From an uncultured Lachnospiraceae bacterium (GTDB lineage Bacteria > Bacillota > Clostridia > Lachnospirales > Lachnospiraceae), in the NCBI GenBank assembly GCA_902777355.1, contig CACYTU010000046.1, positions 1 through 42,360 of the forward strand: a stretch of DNA of 42,360 nt, read 5' to 3'. Position numbers and translations under genes: made by a program. Shown here one piece after another: positions 18,811-34,295 of the stretch. Each line of letters starts with the position of its first letter. Position 1 is the first letter of the stretch. The notes beneath the pieces were generated by a model. That model searched no databases. It was given only the letters and a program-made list of their open reading frames with translations, and was not told the DNA's origin.

Positions 18811-18976
18811 CTTCGTTTCATAATGGATCATAATGAAGAGAATCATGTATCAGTCAGAACACGCATCCGCACTGTCCCGGCATGCGCCGGATCCGGCAGA
18901 TGACGACGACACAAACGCAACCCGGGACTTTTCCGTCCCGAAATGCACTCAGATTATCTCTGCTGATTCCATCCGA

Positions 18977-19085
18977 AATCTTCTTCCATCCAGACTATAC
19001 TGTCGGCCTCGGAGTTTCACCGGGTCATGCCTTGCGGCTCGTGGGCTATACCACCGGTAGGGACTTTCACCCTGCCCTGAAGATT
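18977..19085 (-). ncRNA. FMN riboswitch (RFN element)
   Basis: Read on the minus strand, the sequence contains the hallmark blocks of the RFN element: TCTTCAGGGCAGGGTGAAA, TCCCTACCGGTGG, AGCCCACGAGCC, the GCAAGGCATGACCCGGTG arm, ACTCCGAGGCCGACAGTATA and GTCTGGATGGAAGAAGA. P1 is AATCTTC (19085-19079) with GAAGATT (18983-18977). FMN binding lowers expression of riboflavin genes. It precedes ribD, with a promoter 19 bases before its 5' end. Confidence 0.95.
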
Positions 19086-19110
19086 CTTTATAAGATTAAA
19101 TTACTTTAAC

Positions 19111-19468: not shown

Positions 19469-20362
19469 TTACTGCACTTCCACCAGCTCGATGCGGAAGT
19501 TGAGCTCCTTGCCGGCCATCTCATGGTTGGCGTCAAGAGTGATCATCTTCTCATCCTTGGCTGTCACAGTGACAGGGAAGGGCTGTCCCATCATATTTCT
19601 GAGGAAGACGCGCTCACCGACATTCAGGTCCTCGGAGCCGGGGAGCTGACTGATCTCAATGGTGATGATATTTTCGGGATCAGGCATGCCGTAGGCTTCC
19701 TCGGGCATCAGGTGGATGTCGACTGTCTGGCCGACTTCCATGTCAGCCACTGCCTGGTCGAAGCCTCTGATCATCATGCCGGCGCCGCAGATGAAATCCA
19801 GGGTCTGGCCGCGGTCATAAGAGGAATCGAACTGTGTTCCATCGTTGAAAGTACCTCTGTAGTGGACTCTGCAGGTTCTTCCTGCATTTCTGCCTTCCAG
19901 AATGATCTGAGGAGCACCGCCGCCACAGCAGCCTCCGCAGCTTTCTCCGCATCCTTCTTCGCCGCAGCCTTCTTCGCCGCAGCCTTCTTCACCATCGCCG
20001 TGATGGCCGCACTCATGGCCCTCGCCGTGATGATGGTGGTCACAGTTGGCGCCCGTGGACACCAGGCTGCCGGCAAGATAATCACGGACTGCCTGGTCCG
20101 CATCCCCTTCGGCACCTGCCACCACTGTGATTCCCGCCTGCTGCAGAGCATTCATGGCACCGCCGCCCAGGCCGCCGCAGATCAGCACTTCGATGACCTT
20201 GTCCGCCAGAAGTCCCGCCAGCGCGCCGTGGCCGACACCGTTGGATCCGATCACCTCGGCGGAGACGATCTTTCCGTCTTCCACATCATAGACCTTAAAA
20301 GTCTCAGTTCTTCCGAAATGCTGAAAAATATTACCGTTGTCATAAGTTACTGCAATTTTCAT
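19469..20362 (-). CDS. NifX/NifB-like domain fused to a SlyD-like FKBP isomerase
   Basis: The ATG at 20362 (MKIAVTYDNGNIFQHFG) matches the conserved start of NifX/NifB/NafY-like domains, which bind iron-molybdenum or iron-sulfur clusters (residues about 1-105). Residues about 107-140 form a His/Cys/Gly/Glu-rich linker with HHHH, CGHH and repeated EEGCG and GCC, a likely metal-binding stretch. Residues about 143-297 are a SlyD-type FKBP with VHYRGTFNDG, TQFDSS, GAGMMIRGFDQAV, PEEAYG and the inserted flap with its chaperone-like C-terminal part. The frame is open to 20614 upstream, but without a convincing ribosome site. I infer a metal-handling or metalloenzyme-folding role. No nif genes are near. 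The Cys/His linker is coded by tandem repeats. Confidence 0.85.
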   Translation of the reverse strand: MKIAVTYDNGNIFQHFGRTETFKVYDVEDGKIVSAEVIGSNGVGHGALAGLLADKVIEVLICGGLGGGAMNALQQAGITVVAGAEGDADQAVRDYLAGSLVSTGANCDHHHHGEGHECGHHGDGEEGCGEEGCGEEGCGESCGGCCGGGAPQIILEGRNAGRTCRVHYRGTFNDGTQFDSSYDRGQTLDFICGAGMMIRGFDQAVADMEVGQTVDIHLMPEEAYGMPDPENIITIEISQLPGSEDLNVGERVFLRNMMGQPFPVTVTAKDEKMITLDANHEMAGKELNFRIELVEVQ

Positions 20363-20914
20363 CTGTTCTTTTTTCCTCTCTTTCAGATATGCCGGAGCTC
20401 TCCTGCGATGAGCCCCCGGAAAGTAGTTCGTGAAAACAATCTCTCCGACGGAATCCGCAGAGGTTTGCGGCACTCGATTATCGACGCAAATCTCCGAAAG
20501 ACCGGATATGCGGGCATATCCGTCTTTGCGGACGCTTGCTCGCTGTTTAATCAATCTTCCGCAGCGTGCCGCAGCACGCAAGTAGATTAAATTTAACGCA
20601 ATTGAATATATCATGTCAAGGGTATGTTTCCCTGTTTGGACAGCGGTTTTTTCCAGACTTTGGATAAAGTAATATTTTCCTGCCCGGGCTGCAGTTTTAT
20701 TCTGCCCGAGCTGTTGTATATTTCCATGTCTGGAAAGGTATATTTCCTTATCCGGATAGTGTTTTACTGCCCTGCCCGGGTATATTTACATTCCCTTCTT
20801 TTATTTTCTTCCGCAGAAAAATCACCGTATCAGAGAATGTTAGTATTGAATTGTCTGAGGACAGCACGGCATGATTCTATGCCGGGGCAGGGAAAAAGGC
20901 TGTATTTGTATTGT

Positions 20915-21251: not shown

Positions 21252-22829
21252 ATGCAGGATTTTACAAATTTATGGAAAGAACAGGATTTGCCTTCCGGCG
21301 AGACAACCAGACTCGACAACGCCCAGGACCAGTTCAATCTCTGGCTGAAAGAGAACGGTTTTTCCGAAGACGCGCTGGTCAACCCGGAAGAAAGCAGCCC
21401 TTTTGAGGATTCTTTTCAGGATCCGGATGACAACACCTGGAAATTCGAGGCAGGTTCCGCCGATGAAAATGAAGTATTCAAAAGCTTTTTTGCCTACATA
21501 CAGAAGAATGTGACCAGTGTTCCTCCCCACAGATATCTTCTGCGCCGCCTCCTGAGTCATTTCGGGATTTTTATCGGAACAAACAATTTCGAAGGTCTCT
21601 GGCAGCACGTGGAAAACGAAAAGTGGCGTATCTCCGGTGCGAACGGAAAGACCATGCTCAGTCCGTCACTTGAAGATAAGCTTGCCTCCGGAGAGGGCGG
21701 TACAGCTGAATCCATGGACGAAAAAGATTACAAAGAGATCATCACCGTCCTCAGCAACCGGCTCAAAGAATGTTTCCCTGATGGCATGATCAAAGGAGCC
21801 TGGACGACCTGGTTCCGCCAGCTGATCAAGGATCCCAATGTCGACCGGCTTCGCATGCTGGCTCTGGCCCTTAAATGGGACTGGGATACTTATCATCTTT
21901 TCAAGGCAAAAGTCCTCAAACGCCGCGCCCTGAATCTTCTGGACTGTGAAGACATTCTCGTTTTTATCAGCCTGAACTTTGCGCCCCAGTGCGGCAGAGA
22001 GCCTTTCGGGACCTATCTGAGCCTGCGGGATATTTATCTGGCGCCGCCCGCTTCCCGGCCTGACTCCGAAGCGGATCCTGAAAGCAGTGGAACTGCCGGA
22101 ACCGATACGGAAGAGAACAGTTCCGTAAAAATCGGGGATATGCTGAGCGAACTCCTGAGCCCCCACGGCGGTGTAAGCTCCCTCGACATTGACACACTGC
22201 TTTCGGAGCCGGACGAAAATCTGCTCCGGGTGATCCGGAAAGTAAACGAACTGAACAGCCGGAAAGTCATGCGCAGTCCCCAGAAAGTCTTCCTGGAGCA
22301 ATGGGATCAGTTCATGTATCACCTCTCTGTCCGGGAGGAATACTCCGGCTACGATAAGACAAACAAGCACCGTGTCTTCAAATATCTGTACGGCGAGAAT
22401 GTCGAGAGGCAGGTCAGCAGCTCAGGCGGCAACAGGATCGCGGATCTGCCGGACAGCAAAATGGCCCGCCTTGCGCCCGGCGGAGAAAAAGATTTTTACC
22501 TCGACAGTCAGGAATTTCTCGACACGCGTATCCGCGACAGTCTTTTTTATACTGTCAACTTTACATCCGACGAAGTGCGGCAGCGAAATCTGCTTCTCAC
22601 CATGGCATTTTTGAATTATGTCTATCTGGGAGGACTTCCGTCTTCCTATGAGATGAGAGTCGGTGAATTTTCATACAATGTTACAGACCTGCTGAATCAG
22701 TGCGGTTTTATGTCCCTGCACAGCGCGAGCGCCTACGACACTTTCCTCAAGCTTCTTTTGTCCTGCGAAGACCCCTTTGAGCTCTTCCGCTTTATCTGGC
22801 ACAAAAAGACAGAATCGGAATTCTGCTGA
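21252..22829 (+). CDS. Unrecognised 525-residue helical protein, module gene 1
   Basis: GGAG lies seven bases before the ATG. The product is soluble, with no signal or membrane segment. It is acidic at the N-terminus (NPEESSPFEDSFQDPDDN) and mostly helical after residue 75. Around residues 180-260 it reads LRMLALALKWDWDTYHLFKA, RRALNLLDCEDILVFISLNF, which resembles helical repeats I recall in clostridial proteins found beside kinase-domain genes (unverified). Residues about 270-300 are a Ser/Thr/Glu-rich linker. The C-terminal 100 residues (RQRNLLLTMAFLNYVYLGGL, YDTFLKLLLSCEDPFELFRF) look like a compact helical domain. The next gene follows after 193 bases on the same strand and encodes a protein kinase, so it may be a substrate, adaptor or effector. 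No function is assigned. Confidence 0.8.
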   Translation: MQDFTNLWKEQDLPSGETTRLDNAQDQFNLWLKENGFSEDALVNPEESSPFEDSFQDPDDNTWKFEAGSADENEVFKSFFAYIQKNVTSVPPHRYLLRRLLSHFGIFIGTNNFEGLWQHVENEKWRISGANGKTMLSPSLEDKLASGEGGTAESMDEKDYKEIITVLSNRLKECFPDGMIKGAWTTWFRQLIKDPNVDRLRMLALALKWDWDTYHLFKAKVLKRRALNLLDCEDILVFISLNFAPQCGREPFGTYLSLRDIYLAPPASRPDSEADPESSGTAGTDTEENSSVKIGDMLSELLSPHGGVSSLDIDTLLSEPDENLLRVIRKVNELNSRKVMRSPQKVFLEQWDQFMYHLSVREEYSGYDKTNKHRVFKYLYGENVERQVSSSGGNRIADLPDSKMARLAPGGEKDFYLDSQEFLDTRIRDSLFYTVNFTSDEVRQRNLLLTMAFLNYVYLGGLPSSYEMRVGEFSYNVTDLLNQCGFMSLHSASAYDTFLKLLLSCEDPFELFRFIWHKKTESEFC

Positions 22830-23022
22830 AAAACCATACCGTTCCCGGACAGACGGACAGACAGACAGGAGCCGCACGATCATCGCAGACAAATGACAGC
22901 CGTCGACACGGTCCGGTCAGAGATCATGACCGGCAGGATAAAGACAGGCTGCGCCTGCAGCCGCACTGAAGAAGAAGGCACAGATCAATAACCTGCATCA
23001 GCGAAAAAAGGAGATGTTTACG

Positions 23023-26000
23023 ATGGCGGAGCGAATTCTGATAAATAAAAGCAAAAAGGCAGGAAAGCGTATTCCCATGCCGGAGGGTACCGTTTTCCCG
23101 GTCACGGGAACAGATATCCTGATCGCGAGAGACGGAAAAGAAAACGAGTATTCCTCCGGCAGCACATGTCTGGTCTACAGAGGACATATTGTGTCCGGAA
23201 CCGGGATCGTGACCGGCATGCATGTGATCATAAAAGAATACTATCCCTCCTCCTGCAGTGATTCTGGCGGACTGGTCCGCCTTCCCGACGGTTCCCTGGT
23301 TCTGGAAAAAGGCGGGGAGGCAGACGTTTCTTTTTATAAAAACAAAGAGCAGTTTCTGCAGGGTCTGGAGTACCAGAAGGAACTGGCGGGCTCCAATGCC
23401 ATGGAGATTTCCATCCGCCCCCTCTTTATCAGCAACTGGGGGAACACCGTCTATATCATCAGCGACGCCCACAGGGGCAGCGACCTCAATCTCCATTCCC
23501 CCGGCTCTCTGAAGGAGGCGGTCTCCGTCGCGATCTCCTTCGCGGAGACAATGGGGATCCTGCACGAAAACGGCTATATCATGACCGATATCAAAGCGGA
23601 TAATTTTCTGTGGATCCAAAAGCCCAACTCCGTCCGGATCATCGATTCCGACAGCCTTGTGCCCTTCAGGGATCCGGTCCGCATGATGCAGAAACCCCTG
23701 TTTGCCAACAAGAATCACCGTGCTCCGGAGCTGGACTTTCTGCAGATCAAGATGCGGGAAGGGATTCCGGCGAAGGAAATGCGGATGCTCAAAAGGGTCA
23801 TGCTGACTCCCCAGACCGACCTGTACTCTGAAGGAGTCTTCTTTTTTGAACTCTTTTTCAAAAGACTTCCGGGATTCTCCGACTTCAGGTCCTATATAAA
23901 GCAGTGCGCAGAGAATAAGACCGACGGAAAGCAGCAGCTGATCGATGAGCTCGCAGCCCTGTACGGGTCCGAGATCAGGGAATCAGGCTCGGATACCACC
24001 CGGCTGCTGTCCTCTGTCCTGTCAATTCTCGAAAAAATGCTGATTCGCAATCCCGCCGAGCGGAGGTCCATGGGATACCGCGCCGACGGGGCCCTCGTTT
24101 CCGATTTAGAAGAAATCTATGCCCAGCTCTCCTCGGATAAGATCGTACTGCGCCGCGAAGCCGCCAGCGCCAACGCCAGATTCACCGCATACAACCTGCT
24201 GCAGAAATACCCGCTCTTCGACTATGCCGTGCCCGCAGCCCTGAATGCCCGCCCTTGTGCCGCCACAAAAGCTGCCGCTGAGACCAACGGGAAAGCTGCC
24301 GCCGGCACCTATGGAGAGGCTGCCGCTGGCACCGACGGGAAAGCTGCCGACGGCACCTATGGGGAAGCTTCCGCTGGCACCGACGGGAAAGCTTCCGTCT
24401 GTGCCGTCACAAAAGCTGCCGCAGGAAAAGAGCTCCGTGTCGCCATTGTCGGAAGCCACGTCATGCGGACAGACATACTCTCCGCTGTGCTGTCCATCGG
24501 ACAGATGCCGGATATGCCCCTGGTCGTGGAACTGATCTCCGAAGACGCGGAAGCTTTCTGGAAGGATTATTTATCGAAAAAGAACAACCCCGGACTTGCC
24601 GGGGCAGTGACCTGGGAATATGCGCAGGACAGCAGAGACGGTCAGTCACCTGCCTCCATGGAATTCGACGACCGGCTGGTCTCCCGCCCCCTCGCCCATC
24701 TGATCATTGACAGGCGGGGCTGGCCGGAATCGCGTGTAAGAAACTACTCAGGCACCAAAGCCGCTTCTCCCGATAAGTCAACAGATGCCGGCCATGAGCC
24801 TTATCCCGGCTATTACATCATCCTGGAGGAAAGCCCGGAGAAGAAAAAGGCCTGGATCAGATATGCCGCCCGCAGGGCAGCACAGATGAAGCAGGCCGCG
24901 AAAACGGCAATGATTGAGGACCTTTCAATGACTGCGGACATTTCAATGGCTGCAGATATTTCAATGGCTGCGGAAATGAAGCGGGCTGCCGGAAAAGACC
25001 GGGTGGCAGGCGCCGGCGTTCCCGGACCTGTTTTCATCGGTTATCTCAGATTTGAAAATGAAGAGCCTTCCCTGCGGGAATCCCTTTCTGACAGCAGTCT
25101 GCTGGCGGACTCCTTCACCCGAAAGAATTCTGACAGCCTGTTCCCGCACAATCAGAATACAGCTTCCTCCGCTGAGGTTCCCTATACTCTCTATGCGATC
25201 AGCGCGGAGGCTTTTACAGAGGATTACTCGGAAAAAATGTTTTCCGAAAAAATCTACCACATGGGTCTGATGGCTCACGCCTATTACTGCAAAGCCCTGG
25301 ATTCCGACGAAGAAATCGATATGGCTGCTCTGGAGCGGGATTTCCGAAAAGATTTTTACAATATCACTTCCTCCGAGCGATGTGCCCTGCACGGCGTCTA
25401 CAAAATGTCAGGCATCGGGATCGACAGCAAAAGACCCGGACATATCAGAAAATTCAACCGTATGATCAATGATCCTGCCGTCCTGGAAAAGCTGGCCTGG
25501 CTGGAGCACCTGAGCTGGACGGCCTTCATGCTCACATCGGGCGCAGTCCCGGTGTCCATGGACGAGTTTGAAAAATATGCCTATACCGGCTCCAATGACT
25601 GGAAAGATAAATCCAACAGCGCCCACATTCGTCATCCCCTGCTCGTGGCTTCGGGATACAGCACGGAAAACACCCTTCAGGGAATCCAGTCTCCCGAAGA
25701 GATCACGCCGGAAATGTTTGAGCGCCTGGATCCTCTGGACAAGGTCTCGGTCCGGATCACACGCTGGTACGCCTCCCGGCGGGAGGATTTCAAGGCCTGC
25801 TATCTGACCTGGCTGGAAGACCTTACGGCCCTCTGCAAAGGGACTGCCCGCACAGGCGGAGCTTCCCTGCCCGAAACCGCGGAGCCTGCCGGCACGGCAT
25901 TTTTGCCCTCTGGAAAAAACAGCCCCGGGGAGCATGATACACTTCAGGAGCAAAAGAATGCACAGGAGACACCCGGCGAAGAGACCGTCCTTCTTCTATC

Positions 26001-26259
26001 TGCGCTCAGGCAGAGCGGATTGGAATGCATAGAACTGGCCGGCAGCTCACTGGTCCCCCTCGAACCTGCCTGCAGGATGCAATGGCTGACAGCAGTGCAG
26101 AGAATGCAGGACCTGTATTCCGGCAGCCGCGAGGTTCTGGATCTTCTCCTGACCGCAAAGAACCGGATCATGAAGCCTGTCTTTCACTCTTTTGAGGACA
26201 GAGATTTTAAACAAAACGACAGAGAACTGACCAATGCCGTCATGGACATCATCTCCTGA
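23023..26259 (+). CDS. Protein kinase with Rossmann-like and RyR-like regions, module gene 2
   Basis: AAAAAGGAG ends at 23013, so the ATG at 23023 is preferred to the one at 23014. The 1078-residue protein starts with a Ser/Thr-type kinase domain (about residues 15-370): Lys71 in VIIKEYYP, the catalytic loop TDIKADNFL with Asp189 and Asn194, a metal-binding Asp208 in IDSDSL in place of DFG, and APE ending at Glu236. All catalytic residues are present, so it is likely active. Residues about 412-469 are an Ala/Gly/Thr/Lys linker of 8-residue repeats (GTYGEAAA, GTDGKAAD). From 470, ELRVAIVGSHVMRTDILSAV looks like a Rossmann-like fold. Near 825-925, WLEHLSWTAFMLTSG and NSAHIRHPLLVASG resemble prokaryotic RyR-like domains. 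The architecture suggests a nucleotide-sensing kinase. The RyR and Rossmann assignments are inference. Confidence 0.85.
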   Translation: MAERILINKSKKAGKRIPMPEGTVFPVTGTDILIARDGKENEYSSGSTCLVYRGHIVSGTGIVTGMHVIIKEYYPSSCSDSGGLVRLPDGSLVLEKGGEADVSFYKNKEQFLQGLEYQKELAGSNAMEISIRPLFISNWGNTVYIISDAHRGSDLNLHSPGSLKEAVSVAISFAETMGILHENGYIMTDIKADNFLWIQKPNSVRIIDSDSLVPFRDPVRMMQKPLFANKNHRAPELDFLQIKMREGIPAKEMRMLKRVMLTPQTDLYSEGVFFFELFFKRLPGFSDFRSYIKQCAENKTDGKQQLIDELAALYGSEIRESGSDTTRLLSSVLSILEKMLIRNPAERRSMGYRADGALVSDLEEIYAQLSSDKIVLRREAASANARFTAYNLLQKYPLFDYAVPAALNARPCAATKAAAETNGKAAAGTYGEAAAGTDGKAADGTYGEASAGTDGKASVCAVTKAAAGKELRVAIVGSHVMRTDILSAVLSIGQMPDMPLVVELISEDAEAFWKDYLSKKNNPGLAGAVTWEYAQDSRDGQSPASMEFDDRLVSRPLAHLIIDRRGWPESRVRNYSGTKAASPDKSTDAGHEPYPGYYIILEESPEKKKAWIRYAARRAAQMKQAAKTAMIEDLSMTADISMAADISMAAEMKRAAGKDRVAGAGVPGPVFIGYLRFENEEPSLRESLSDSSLLADSFTRKNSDSLFPHNQNTASSAEVPYTLYAISAEAFTEDYSEKMFSEKIYHMGLMAHAYYCKALDSDEEIDMAALERDFRKDFYNITSSERCALHGVYKMSGIGIDSKRPGHIRKFNRMINDPAVLEKLAWLEHLSWTAFMLTSGAVPVSMDEFEKYAYTGSNDWKDKSNSAHIRHPLLVASGYSTENTLQGIQSPEEITPEMFERLDPLDKVSVRITRWYASRREDFKACYLTWLEDLTALCKGTARTGGASLPETAEPAGTAFLPSGKNSPGEHDTLQEQKNAQETPGEETVLLLSALRQSGLECIELAGSSLVPLEPACRMQWLTAVQRMQDLYSGSREVLDLLLTAKNRIMKPVFHSFEDRDFKQNDRELTNAVMDIIS
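24259..24429 (+). repeat. In-frame 24-bp repeats coding the kinase linker
   Basis: Imperfect 24-bp units, alternately GGCACCTATGG and GGCACCGACGG types, encode eight-residue Gly/Thr/Ala/Lys blocks. A second small in-frame array near 24925-24980 encodes MTADIS, MAADIS and MAAEM. Confidence 0.8.
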
Positions 26260-26353
26260 TCTTCTTTTCAAAGGGCTCTGTGTTCTTTTGCAGTGATCAA
26301 ATACCAGAGATTTCAGCCCCAAGGAGGGCAGCCCCAAAAGGAGAGACCGATTG

Positions 26354-26917
26354 ATGATAACAGTTATCAAACGACACGGAAAACCGGTACAGGCATATAT
26401 ACTTGGAGAAGACTCTCCTGTCCTGGACCGGTTGATCCGGAGCGGAAAGATTATACCCCTTCCGGACGGAAACTATGAAGTGATGTCAAGAGAAGCCGTC
26501 CATGGGAACAGCGGACACGGAGAGACAGCTGCCAGGGGTGACTATATAAAGATTGATTCAGACGGATACCCGTATCCGGTCAGACCCGGTTTTTTCGAGG
26601 CAAACCACACTCACATCAAAGACAATGAATACATACAGAACCCCTCACCGATGTATGCCTGGACCATGGACCAGCCCATGTGCCCGGAAATTGAATTTTT
26701 ACAGCGAAATAAAGGGCTGATCCTCAACCGGGAGGATTTCAGCCACGCGTTCTCCGCCCCTCTGTGGGGAACCATCGAATCCGCCCCCGGCGATTCGGTT
26801 CTCGTTTTTTACAGTATCACTTATTCAGAGGACCACACAGTGACAGACGCGGACTACAACTTTGTCGTCCGGCAGGAATTCGACAAAAGCTACCAGGTAC
26901 TCCCGGGCCAGATATGA
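26354..26917 (+). CDS. Unrecognised 187-residue protein, module gene 3
   Basis: AAGGAG about 11 bases upstream supports the ATG at 26354 (a TTG lies at 26351). The product is a soluble protein starting MITVIKRHGKPVQAYILGED. The N-terminal third (PVLDRLIRSGKIIPLPDGNY) looks like a small beta-rich domain. It continues with DYIKIDSDGYPYPV, PMCPEIEFL, a C-terminal APLWGTIESAPGDSVLVFYS and DADYNFVVRQEF. I do not recognise the family. It begins 94 bases after the kinase gene on the same strand and is followed by a strong hairpin, so it closes the module. It could be a kinase substrate, an adaptor or a small regulatory subunit; nothing in the sequence decides this. Confidence 0.75.
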   Translation: MITVIKRHGKPVQAYILGEDSPVLDRLIRSGKIIPLPDGNYEVMSREAVHGNSGHGETAARGDYIKIDSDGYPYPVRPGFFEANHTHIKDNEYIQNPSPMYAWTMDQPMCPEIEFLQRNKGLILNREDFSHAFSAPLWGTIESAPGDSVLVFYSITYSEDHTVTDADYNFVVRQEFDKSYQVLPGQI

Positions 26918-26954: not shown

Positions 26955-27033
26955 ACCCCGGCCCTCCTGAATCCCGGGGCGAAATCAAGAAAGCAGCATG
27001 GATGCTATTGCAGATCCATGCTGCCTTTGATTT
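26955..27033 (+). terminator. Strong hairpins ending the kinase module
   Basis: CCCCGG and CCGGGG (26956-26979) form one stem. A second, longer stem pairs AAATCAA...GCAGCATGGAT (26982-27003) with ATCCATGCTGC...TTTGATTT (27014-27033). The T tract is weak, so termination efficiency is uncertain, but the structure is clear. Confidence 0.6.
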
Positions 27034-27044
27034 GGCTCAGCTGA

Positions 27045-27187
27045 CAAATTCCCTGTCATTGTTTCCTGCCAGTATTTCCTGTCATTGTTTCCTGTCAGTA
27101 TTTCCTGTCATTGTTTCCTGTTAGTATTTCCTCTCAGTATTTCCTGTCATTGTTTTCTGTCTTTGTTTCCTCTCAGTATTTCCTGAG
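27045..27187. repeat. 13-bp tandem repeat reaching into the HD gene
   Basis: About ten imperfect units TTTCCTGTCA(TTG/GTA) fill the spacer and run into the last codons of the HD-domain gene at 27173. They are not coding on the plus strand. Confidence 0.85.
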
Positions 27188-27625
27188 AATCATCTCCTTT
27201 GAAGCCACATATTTGTCCGCCATGCAGACCAGGGCCGCCTCTTTTGAGCGGGGCGGGGAAAACAGGGTCAGAGGCCACATATGCCCCCGGATAATATTGA
27301 GTTCGTTGGGCGTCAGACCAAAATCCCTGCCGGCGTTTTCCGCCGCCTTACCGGGATGAGAGGTTCCGTGCCGGTAGGGGGTCAGCCCCTCTGCCTTGAT
27401 ATCATAGAGATAGTAGTCGTGCAGGAGGGCGCCCCGGGCAAGTTCCCGCTCGTCGATATCCCAGCCCAGCTTCTCGGCAAGCCGGAAGCTTGCCTCGGCG
27501 ACCTTGATGCTGTGGCTTAAAGTATTTGTTCCGAAATGCTGGGGGAACTCCTTCATCCGCTTCACTTTAGGATCCAGGAGCAGCCTGTTCAGTTCCGTAA
27601 AAAATCGTTCTCTGCTGTTTGTCAT
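27173..27625 (-). CDS. HD-domain phosphohydrolase-like protein
   Basis: This 150-residue protein has the HD metal-site pattern: a His in TNTLSHSIKVAEAS, the doublet in ALLHDYYLYD, a His in IRGHMWP and an Asp in CMADKYVASK. HD-domain proteins are mostly metal-dependent nucleotide phosphohydrolases, and small stand-alone ones often act in the cytosol on nucleotides. The substrate is unknown. The ribosome site is weak (GAAG about nine bases upstream). Its last codons (about residues 146-150, ILRKY) sit in the 13-bp repeat, and upstream lies a 15-bp array. It may be transcribed with the sbcDC genes or on its own. Confidence 0.85.
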   Translation of the reverse strand: MTNSRERFFTELNRLLLDPKVKRMKEFPQHFGTNTLSHSIKVAEASFRLAEKLGWDIDERELARGALLHDYYLYDIKAEGLTPYRHGTSHPGKAAENAGRDFGLTPNELNIIRGHMWPLTLFSPPRSKEAALVCMADKYVASKEMILRKY

Positions 27626-27647: not shown

Positions 27648-27788
27648 TGCTGTATTCTGATTGTCTATATTCTGACTGTCTATATTCTGATTTTCTATAT
27701 TCTGACTGTCTATATTCTGACTATCTATATTCTGACTGTCTATATTCTGATTATCTATATTCTGATTATCTATATTCTGATTACTGTT
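27648..27788. repeat. 15-bp tandem repeat, about nine units
   Basis: Units TCTATATTCTGA(C/T)T(G/A/T) are nearly perfect. No other function is evident. The spacer 27789-27915 holds only short palindromes such as GTGAGCTCAC. Confidence 0.9.
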
Positions 27789-33791: not shown

Positions 33792-34187
33792 GCAGTAACG
33801 TAAGCCTGCCTTATGGCTTCTGTTTCACAAATCATCGGCTGTCTTTTAGGGAAGTGTCCGCCTTTTCGAAGACATTCTTAATCATCATGCTCACAATTAA
33901 AAAGCTTAATCGAAAGCTCTGTTCTTCCCGTTGACAAGTCTGTTAAAACACACGTTAACCCCCATAGGCTTGTTCCGGAAAAGGCGCTGATCAATCCCCG
34001 GAGTCCAGGCGGGTTAGTGTACTAAAACAAAAACATCCGAACCGGCCTTGAGGCAGCGTGCCAGCCTTGACGGAGGGAATGATGTGTGATACGGTAATTT
34101 TTGCGTGAATTAAATATGACAGTTGAAACATTCGGAATATTATATCCAGACTTTCTGCTCTGGTTTACAGACCGGATGTGGATGTGA

Positions 34188-34275
34188 CTCTGGAGAATCT
34201 CGTTTTTGTTCGGGTACCGAAGGTGCAAGGCGGCACGGAATGTCCGCCGAATCTCTCAGGTAAAAGGACAGGGTA
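34188..34275 (+). ncRNA. Glycine riboswitch (single aptamer)
   Basis: Recognisable blocks are GGAGAATCTCG, CGGGTACCGAAGGTGCAAGG, CGCCGAATCTCTCAGG and TAAAAGGACAGGG, the glycine aptamer consensus. Only one aptamer is seen, not the usual tandem pair. It precedes a glycine/alanine:sodium symporter gene and a terminator, so it probably switches transcription on or off with glycine level. Confidence 0.9.
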
Positions 34276-34295
34276 AAAATCATGAATCTGGATTT

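Follow-up and report, generated by a model that had tools for sequence, protein, structure and literature searches.

Which signal is read, and which output is driven, by a bacterial protein kinase that carries Rossmann-like and ryanodine receptor (RyR)-like parts behind its catalytic domain and is encoded between two genes of unnamed families? The question is raised by three consecutive open frames on the plus strand of a DNA stretch of 42,360 nucleotides (the window, i.e. the whole stretch analyzed) from an uncultured Lachnospiraceae bacterium (assembly GCA_902777355.1, contig CACYTU010000046.1): HEL (525 amino acids, aa), the kinase P0002 (1078 aa) and P0003 (187 aa). In an initial annotation they had been proposed to form a signaling or defence module in which the kinase senses a nucleotide and phosphorylates its neighbors. 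The comparisons presented here favor a ligand-gated phosphorylation module: a chain limited to an active-type kinase, HEL as its partner, an RyR-like gate and an ADP-ribose (ADPR)-like or other adenine ligand is considered probable, and for the whole chain, which adds a TIR-derived signal and a Thoeris-like or nucleotide-alarm role, the balance of probability appears even. Loci are given below as L numbers, genomes as G numbers.

P0002 passed the curated cut-off of the Pfam family Pkinase (PF00069; E 6e-8, 32.8 bits, cut-off 31.7), and Lys71, Asp189, Asn194 and Asp208, which had been described as intact catalytic residues, are in place and did not vary in either of two kinase alignments (4 and 5 sequences, window included). 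By its residues, P0002 is shown to be a predicted kinase of the active type. In PADLOC, the kinase core was matched by mad6 (E 1e-6) and PD-T4-6 (E 1e-5); the NCBIfam MAD6 equivalog cut-off was not reached (13.7 bits versus 460). The Ser/Thr kinase core of P0002 is like those of the PD-T4-6 and MADS MAD6 defence kinases, whereas its other domains and its partners differ.

The assignment of the C-terminal part as RyR-like stood with regard to profile comparison, and received nothing from Pfam or from the window protein taken alone: P0002 had no match to Pfam RyR (PF02026) at E <= 1 and did not reach the cut-off, and 7 of 21 Rossmann-RyR proteins were matched by this family at E <= 0.05. By hhalign, canonical RyR (6 sequences) was linked to the channel-type RyR set (E 7e-10), the latter to the kinase/nuclease-type domain (9 sequences; E 1.5e-10), and the window domain alone to its own family with the window excluded (E 4e-28); seven valid control pairs, with P0003 or kinase, gave E 0.05 to 0.75. 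The direct comparison of canonical RyR with the kinase-type domain was weak (E 9e-4). The profile of the 21 Rossmann-RyR proteins also matched the ryanodine receptor 1 chimera of PDB entry 6uhi (E 6e-6). At the level of profiles, and through intermediate families, the RyR-like identity of this part is confirmed. The preceding part is probably Rossmann-like, judged by its beta-alpha-beta pattern and GxG-type turn; its profile (18 sequences) retrieved nothing significant from the PDB (best E 0.07).

According to a 2026 preprint, the phage protein RyDEP binds 2'/3'-cyclic ADPR (cADPR) via HxxW, H and D residues (PMC13232231). The equivalents of HxxW and H in P0002 (H829, W832, H871) were the same in all 21 Rossmann-RyR proteins, which span four architectures, and make up 3 of the only 7 invariant columns in this set; the fourth ligand position is occupied by D in the other 20 proteins, and the window has D1066 in the matching motif FKQNDR. 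In the motif scan, two canonical RyR proteins (L099, L100) did not show HxxW. Nucleotide sensing by P0002, as predicted initially, is strengthened by this conservation, and the residues suggest an ADPR-like or another adenine nucleotide as the ligand.

In relatives the Rossmann-RyR unit is attached to diverse outputs. Fifteen proteins of 509-562 aa have a C-terminal RyR with the Rossmann-like part in between; Ion_trans_2 was matched by all six that were scanned (best 6e-15), and a TVGYGD filter was present in those inspected. Other fusions join the unit to further membrane proteins or to nucleases: Card1_endonuc matches, all under the Pfam cut-off, were obtained in L033:10125-13637 (contig C68 of the assembly that holds the window), L039, L078 and L089, PADLOC CARF4_PDDEXK matched the C-terminus of the L072 kinase (6e-14) and the C68 protein (4e-9), and E, D, K nuclease motif residues were recognized by eye in L072, L073, L078, L033 and L039. 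P0002 of the window ends just past the RyR motif, without the PD-(D/E)XK domain carried by these relatives. Because K+ channels, membrane proteins and nucleases are all fused to it, the Rossmann-RyR unit seems to act as an interchangeable regulatory part, and this swapping of outputs supports its predicted role as the gate of the kinase. Among same-genus relatives, K+-channel-Rossmann-RyR proteins were observed in L101, L105, L107, L113, L114 and L116; similar RyR-bearing frames of 470-690 aa exist in more of 99 related genomes, with the channel domain checked in 6 only. Two proteins of 963 and 919 aa without Pfam match (L089:13473-16364 and L090:4681-7440) contain an RyR-like stretch as in the L092 kinase.

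HEL and P0003 are gene families without a name in the libraries searched (Pfam, NCBIfam and PADLOC; no family at E <= 1). A PHROGs scan returned weak rows only and no family at E <= 1 for HEL; a profile of its best conserved region, the C-terminus (approximately residues 386-525), had no significant counterpart in the PDB (best E 1.0). That gene 1 encodes a helical protein agrees with a low-confidence AlphaFold model (predicted local distance difference test, pLDDT, 45).

In a set of 99 relatives that counts the own genome, matches were obtained to HEL in 3 genomes, to P0003 in 3 and to P0002 in 16, the last mostly by the kinase part alone or the RyR part alone; when 392 genomes of the order were searched with the kinase alignment, 12 were matched. 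In five other genomes, a HEL homologue adjoins a Rossmann-RyR kinase (L035, L036, L072, L073, L092). L035 (G033) and L036 (G043), classed as same-genus relatives, encode a HEL homologue of 935 and 926 aa, respectively, overlapping by 4 bases with a subsequent kinase gene (1186 and 1195 aa), and next after the kinase a true RyR gene (PF02026, E ~3e-35 to 8e-35). L072 (G415) and L073 (G443), both of one other genus and both among the 12 genomes matched by the kinase alignment, contain a run of P0003-like, HEL-like, kinase and membrane-Rossmann-RyR genes, and in L073 a TIR-WD40 gene separates P0003 from HEL; in L092 (G743, another genus; found with P0003) HEL, kinase and P0003 are ordered as in the window. 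All three genes are therefore together in 3 genomes beside the window's, once in the window order. The expected co-occurrence of the trio across distant genomes is borne out to this extent, the first two genes being paired in other genera and the trio recurring in three genomes, all known instances lying within Lachnospirales.

When a profile of the HEL C-terminus was iterated, it gathered 17 of 478 open reading frames (ORFs), from loci mostly selected for a kinase match, and all 17 lay in loci with a kinase. Against 196 whole genomes, the HEL profile gave 12 matches in 10 genomes: a kinase was encoded within the 1.5-kb flanks in 7 and just beyond in 1 (G212), a PP2C phosphatase instead of a kinase in 2, and neither in 2; without the three profile rows (G196, G212, window) the proportions were 5/9 for a kinase and 2/9 for PP2C only. 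HEL, PP2C and kinase occur together in G204 and G101. The company of a kinase or phosphatase would fit a phosphorylated partner, and the neighborhoods support HEL as a putative recurrent partner of the kinase.

P0003-like genes were detected at 10 places, 8 via P0003 searches (matches in 3/99 and 6/397 genomes, the window in both) and 2 via kinase neighborhoods. A partner was present at 8 of these: HEL and kinase in the window, L072, L073 and L092, a fusion to TIR-WD40 in L088, a TIR gene overlapping by 4 bases in L090, a Rossmann-RyR-nuclease gene in L089, and a TIR one gene off in L050; L049 and L091, on contigs of only 3.9 and 6.5 kb, showed none. Restricted to the 8 places from P0003 searches, any partner was found at 6, HEL plus kinase at 2, and TIR or Rossmann-RyR-nuclease genes instead at 4. 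The suggested signaling or defence module gains from the HEL-kinase neighborhoods and the RyR profiles and loses with respect to P0003, which accompanies the kinase in just 2 of these 8 loci. The P0003 profile had no significant match in the PDB (best E 1.1); the P0003-like protein of L072 weakly matched phrog_419 (E 1e-4), a match not shared by the window P0003.

TIR genes were found at 6 of 15 module loci, and 12 of the genomes concerned contain 51 TIR_2 matches in total. Within 10 kb of the 15 loci 10 TIR were counted versus 0.46 expected (approximately 20-fold), and within 5 kb 7 versus 0.31, in genomes and loci selected for the module and with one TIR belonging to a P0003 fusion; the Poisson value for this enrichment is too strong, because of this selection, the P0003-fused TIR and the clustering of TIR genes. 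The neighborhoods of relatives suggest that a TIR protein may supply the ligand. In L073 and its surroundings (G443:C31:6825-42875), five TIR_2 matches lie in ~36 kb round the kinase operon. L075:6407-10804 encodes a kinase-NB-ARC-TPR protein, and L078:1-4882 a TIR-NB-ARC-TPR protein adjoined by a close homologue; the STAND part is common to both, as though kinase and TIR had been exchanged on one sensor.

Contig C68, from the same assembly as the window, carries on one strand (L033:10125-18532) a row of four genes, which code for membrane-Rossmann-RyR, TIR, solute-binding-like and Rossmann-RyR-nuclease proteins. Taken together with the window trio, the assembly therefore seems to split over two loci what L073 has in one; it is a metagenome-assembled genome, and C68 could be a foreign contig in it. 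Further along C68 (L033/L034), DUF4062-AAA, transglutaminase-like, vWA and zinc-ribbon proteins and an FRG-domain gene are encoded.

In the proposed mechanism, the RyR-like pocket (H829, W832, H871, D1066) would bind a nucleotide of the ADP-ribose type, most probably a cyclic ADPR produced by a TIR protein that is encoded elsewhere in the genome; this would turn the kinase on, the kinase would phosphorylate HEL, and HEL would relay the signal, with P0003 possibly helping to regulate or recruit TIR or RyR partners. A Thoeris-like anti-phage response or another nucleotide alarm would be the likeliest role, for which the window copy would keep the kinase branch, the nuclease branch with its TIR gene being located on contig C68 of the same assembly. 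A defence function would follow from this scheme; a TIR-linked, Thoeris-like one is plausible, if unproven. More tentatively, and as the less likely case, a new class of Lachnospirales TIR immunity may be envisaged in which RyR domains read cyclic ADPR: the RyR-gated kinase with its helical partner would be one effector, the same gate would also sit on K+ channels, membrane proteins and CARF-type nucleases, and one alarm nucleotide would elicit several outputs, as a bacterial parallel to cADPR action on ryanodine receptors.

Several observations weigh against the ligand-gated, TIR-fed module. The AlphaFold models, built from 4-row alignments, are of low confidence (mean pLDDT 45 for HEL and 36 for P0002, the latter including the putative R12 fold). 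The window domain alone gave hhalign values of 0.15 versus canonical RyR and 0.096 versus the channel set; its RyR link therefore requires its family. H871 and D1066 are 195 residues apart due to a long insert, compared with 17 in RyDEP, which makes D1066 the least certain ligand assignment, and in the stand-alone true RyR proteins encoded in L035 and L078 the H100 position lacks a His, with HxxW and the Asp motif retained. HEL was missing from five kinase-bearing loci of the 478-ORF set (L038, L041, L044, L045 and L046, the last a 3.3-kb contig). TIR genes were absent from the window's locus and 8 others of the 15, all five TIR_2 matches of the genome lying off contig C46, and the genes around the trio resemble housekeeping genes. 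Finally, the HEL-sigma factor fusion of L051 suggests transcription, not killing.

This fusion (L051:6873-9152) comprises a HEL-like unit (E 4e-30) and sigma-70 regions 1.2 and 2, and is separated by one gene from a same-clade kinase in which another C-terminus replaces Rossmann-RyR. It leads to the alternative that survives best, namely a metabolic or stress sensor in which Rossmann-RyR reads the adenine-nucleotide, NAD or potassium state and kinase and HEL tune physiology or transcription. Such a sensor, which we consider unlikely, would accommodate the sigma-70 fusion with its related kinase one gene away, the many relatives with K+-channel-Rossmann-RyR proteins, a window locus without TIR or nuclease and the adenine ligands noted in the animal RyR3 R12 domain (PMC13232231), and would be at odds with the TIR enrichment and the P0003-TIR fusion, the NB-ARC/TPR kinases and TIR-NB-ARC proteins in related loci, the CARF-type nuclease fusions and the patchy occurrence (HEL in 3/99 relatives).

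Decay is improbable: a window copy that had lost its nuclease, and perhaps its function, might be read from the repeat-rich linkers and from the L072, L073 and L078 kinases, which continue into a nuclease with E, D, K residues where P0002 ends; the three frames are nevertheless open, the catalytic and the ligand residues have been retained, codons are host-like, the hairpin is strong, and by eye the complete nuclease motif is also missing in L035 and L036. Very improbable is a GAP1-N2-type GTPase/tubulin/vWA conflict system of Firmicutes with the kinase module as linked regulator. Tubulin and vWA sets of this phylum are described in PMC7159879, and vWA was indeed found near the kinase genes of L035 and L036, with Tubulin_2 in L036; neither was seen among the window trio nor in the ORF lists of L072, L073 and L092, which were partly Pfam-scanned. 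Sel1/SseB genes, too, lie close to the RyR and kinase genes there (L035:5-3036, L036:1-7010). That three neighbors stand side by side without functional link, as the gaps of 193 and 94 bases and the presence of P0003 beside HEL and kinase in 2/8 loci from P0003 searches might suggest, is scarcely credible given the recurrent HEL-kinase adjacency and the return of the trio in L072, L073 and L092, i.e. in two other genera.

With respect to known systems, the ligand-gated module shares with the RyDEP/RyR R12 family (PF02026) the HxxW, H and D positions and, via channel proteins, a profile link; unlike phage RyDEP, P0002 is a host protein, is fused to a kinase, has the 195-residue insert and remains under Pfam detection. 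Thoeris resembles it in the idea of a nucleotide gate on an effector and in the TIR genes of the 6/15 related loci; unlike Thoeris, the window locus has no TIR (ThsB), no ThsA SIR2-SLOG or macro-domain effector was seen, and the effector would be a kinase. As in Card1/Can2-type CARF nucleases, a related PD-(D/E)XK follows Rossmann-RyR in L072, L033, L039, L078 and L089, whereas P0002 of the window is without nuclease and the relatives' Card1_endonuc matches stay under the Pfam cut-off. GAP1-N2 tubulin/vWA systems have vWA and Tubulin_2 in common with the surroundings of the G033 and G043 kinase genes, not with the window trio. A 2015 survey of nucleotide-centered conflict systems may already mention prokaryotic RyR fusions. 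The open-access literature was searched by title and start of abstract, and among the matches listed none dealt with an RyR-bearing bacterial kinase. The word kinase has 0 occurrences in the preprint text (PMC13232231), the accessible portion of PMC7159879 has no word beginning RyR or ryanodine, and that of PMC8195603 none beginning RyR and two beginning ryanodine.

The three same-strand genes and their sizes were confirmed as annotated (Table 1). Each chosen ATG is preceded by GGAG or AGGAG; for P0002 the ATG after GGAG was preferred to an upstream ATG at 23014 that would give 1081 aa, and the P0003 start is preceded, at a distance of 3 bases, by an in-frame TTG. The intergenic gaps amount to 193 bases (HEL-kinase) and 94 bases (kinase-P0003). 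The similar base composition noted before is real (GC content 0.51/0.55/0.51) and in line with the 12 other long window ORFs compared. The strong hairpin was likewise recovered (-35.9 kcal/mol; none of 200 shuffles equaled it), and is absent from the list of a simple terminator scan.

Table 1. Positions of the module's genes, their parts and the adjoining hairpin within the window.
Feature	Position	Strand	Basis and remarks
Gene 1, HEL	21252..22829	+	ORF, 525 aa, predicted all-helical; putative kinase partner
Gene 2, P0002 kinase with Rossmann-like and RyR-like parts	23023..26259	+	Pfam Pkinase, homologues; 1078 aa
Kinase domain, ~residues 32-370	23116..24132	+	Alignments A4 and A9; limits approximate
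Ala/Gly/Thr-rich linker from in-frame 24-bp repeats	24268..24397	+	Tandem Repeats Finder
Rossmann-like part, ~residues 468-600	24424..24822	+	Alignment A12; beta-alpha-beta pattern, GxG-type turn
RyR-like domain, ~residues 730-1073	25210..26241	+	hhalign chain; H829, W832, H871, D1066
Gene 3, P0003	26354..26917	+	ORF, 187 aa; relatives are fusions with or neighbors of TIR, Rossmann-RyR or HEL-kinase genes
Strong terminator-like hairpin 3' of gene 3	~26977..27038	+	Fold z -5.7

On either side, the closest long ORFs (19469-20614 and 27173-27625) are oriented opposite to the trio. Downstream of the module, units of 13 bp and 15 bp are repeated in tandem (27048-27185 and 27653-27782), and Rfam riboswitches for flavin mononucleotide (FMN) and glycine are located at 18974-19088 (minus strand) and 34180-34281 (plus strand). 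The host assembly has a size of 3.87 Mb, distributed over 150 contigs, with 84% completeness and 5.1% contamination.

A mobile origin of the module was considered and is disfavored: viral contigs contained no relatives of the 4-kinase alignment A4 or of P0003, phage records no P0003 match, and plasmids no near-identical DNA (P0002 matched weakly in 2 plasmids, E 4e-5 and 6e-4), and the codon use of the trio is host-like. The HD gene adjoining the module was not flanked by the tested window neighbors in 10/10 relatives fetched, which yields no date for an insertion. A phylum search with alignment A9, scoring up to 2 candidates per genome, matched 332/398 genomes, and because among the matches listed nearly all comprised the kinase core only, it tells little about the full protein.

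The preprint newly reports phage RyR proteins that destroy or trap ADPR-type signals (PMC13232231). If the ligand-gated module is real, bacterial RyR domains would gain the reverse role, as receptors for such signals, and a protein kinase would join the possible outputs of TIR signaling. Which ligands RyR domains take up, and for what reason, would become directly testable on soluble bacterial proteins.

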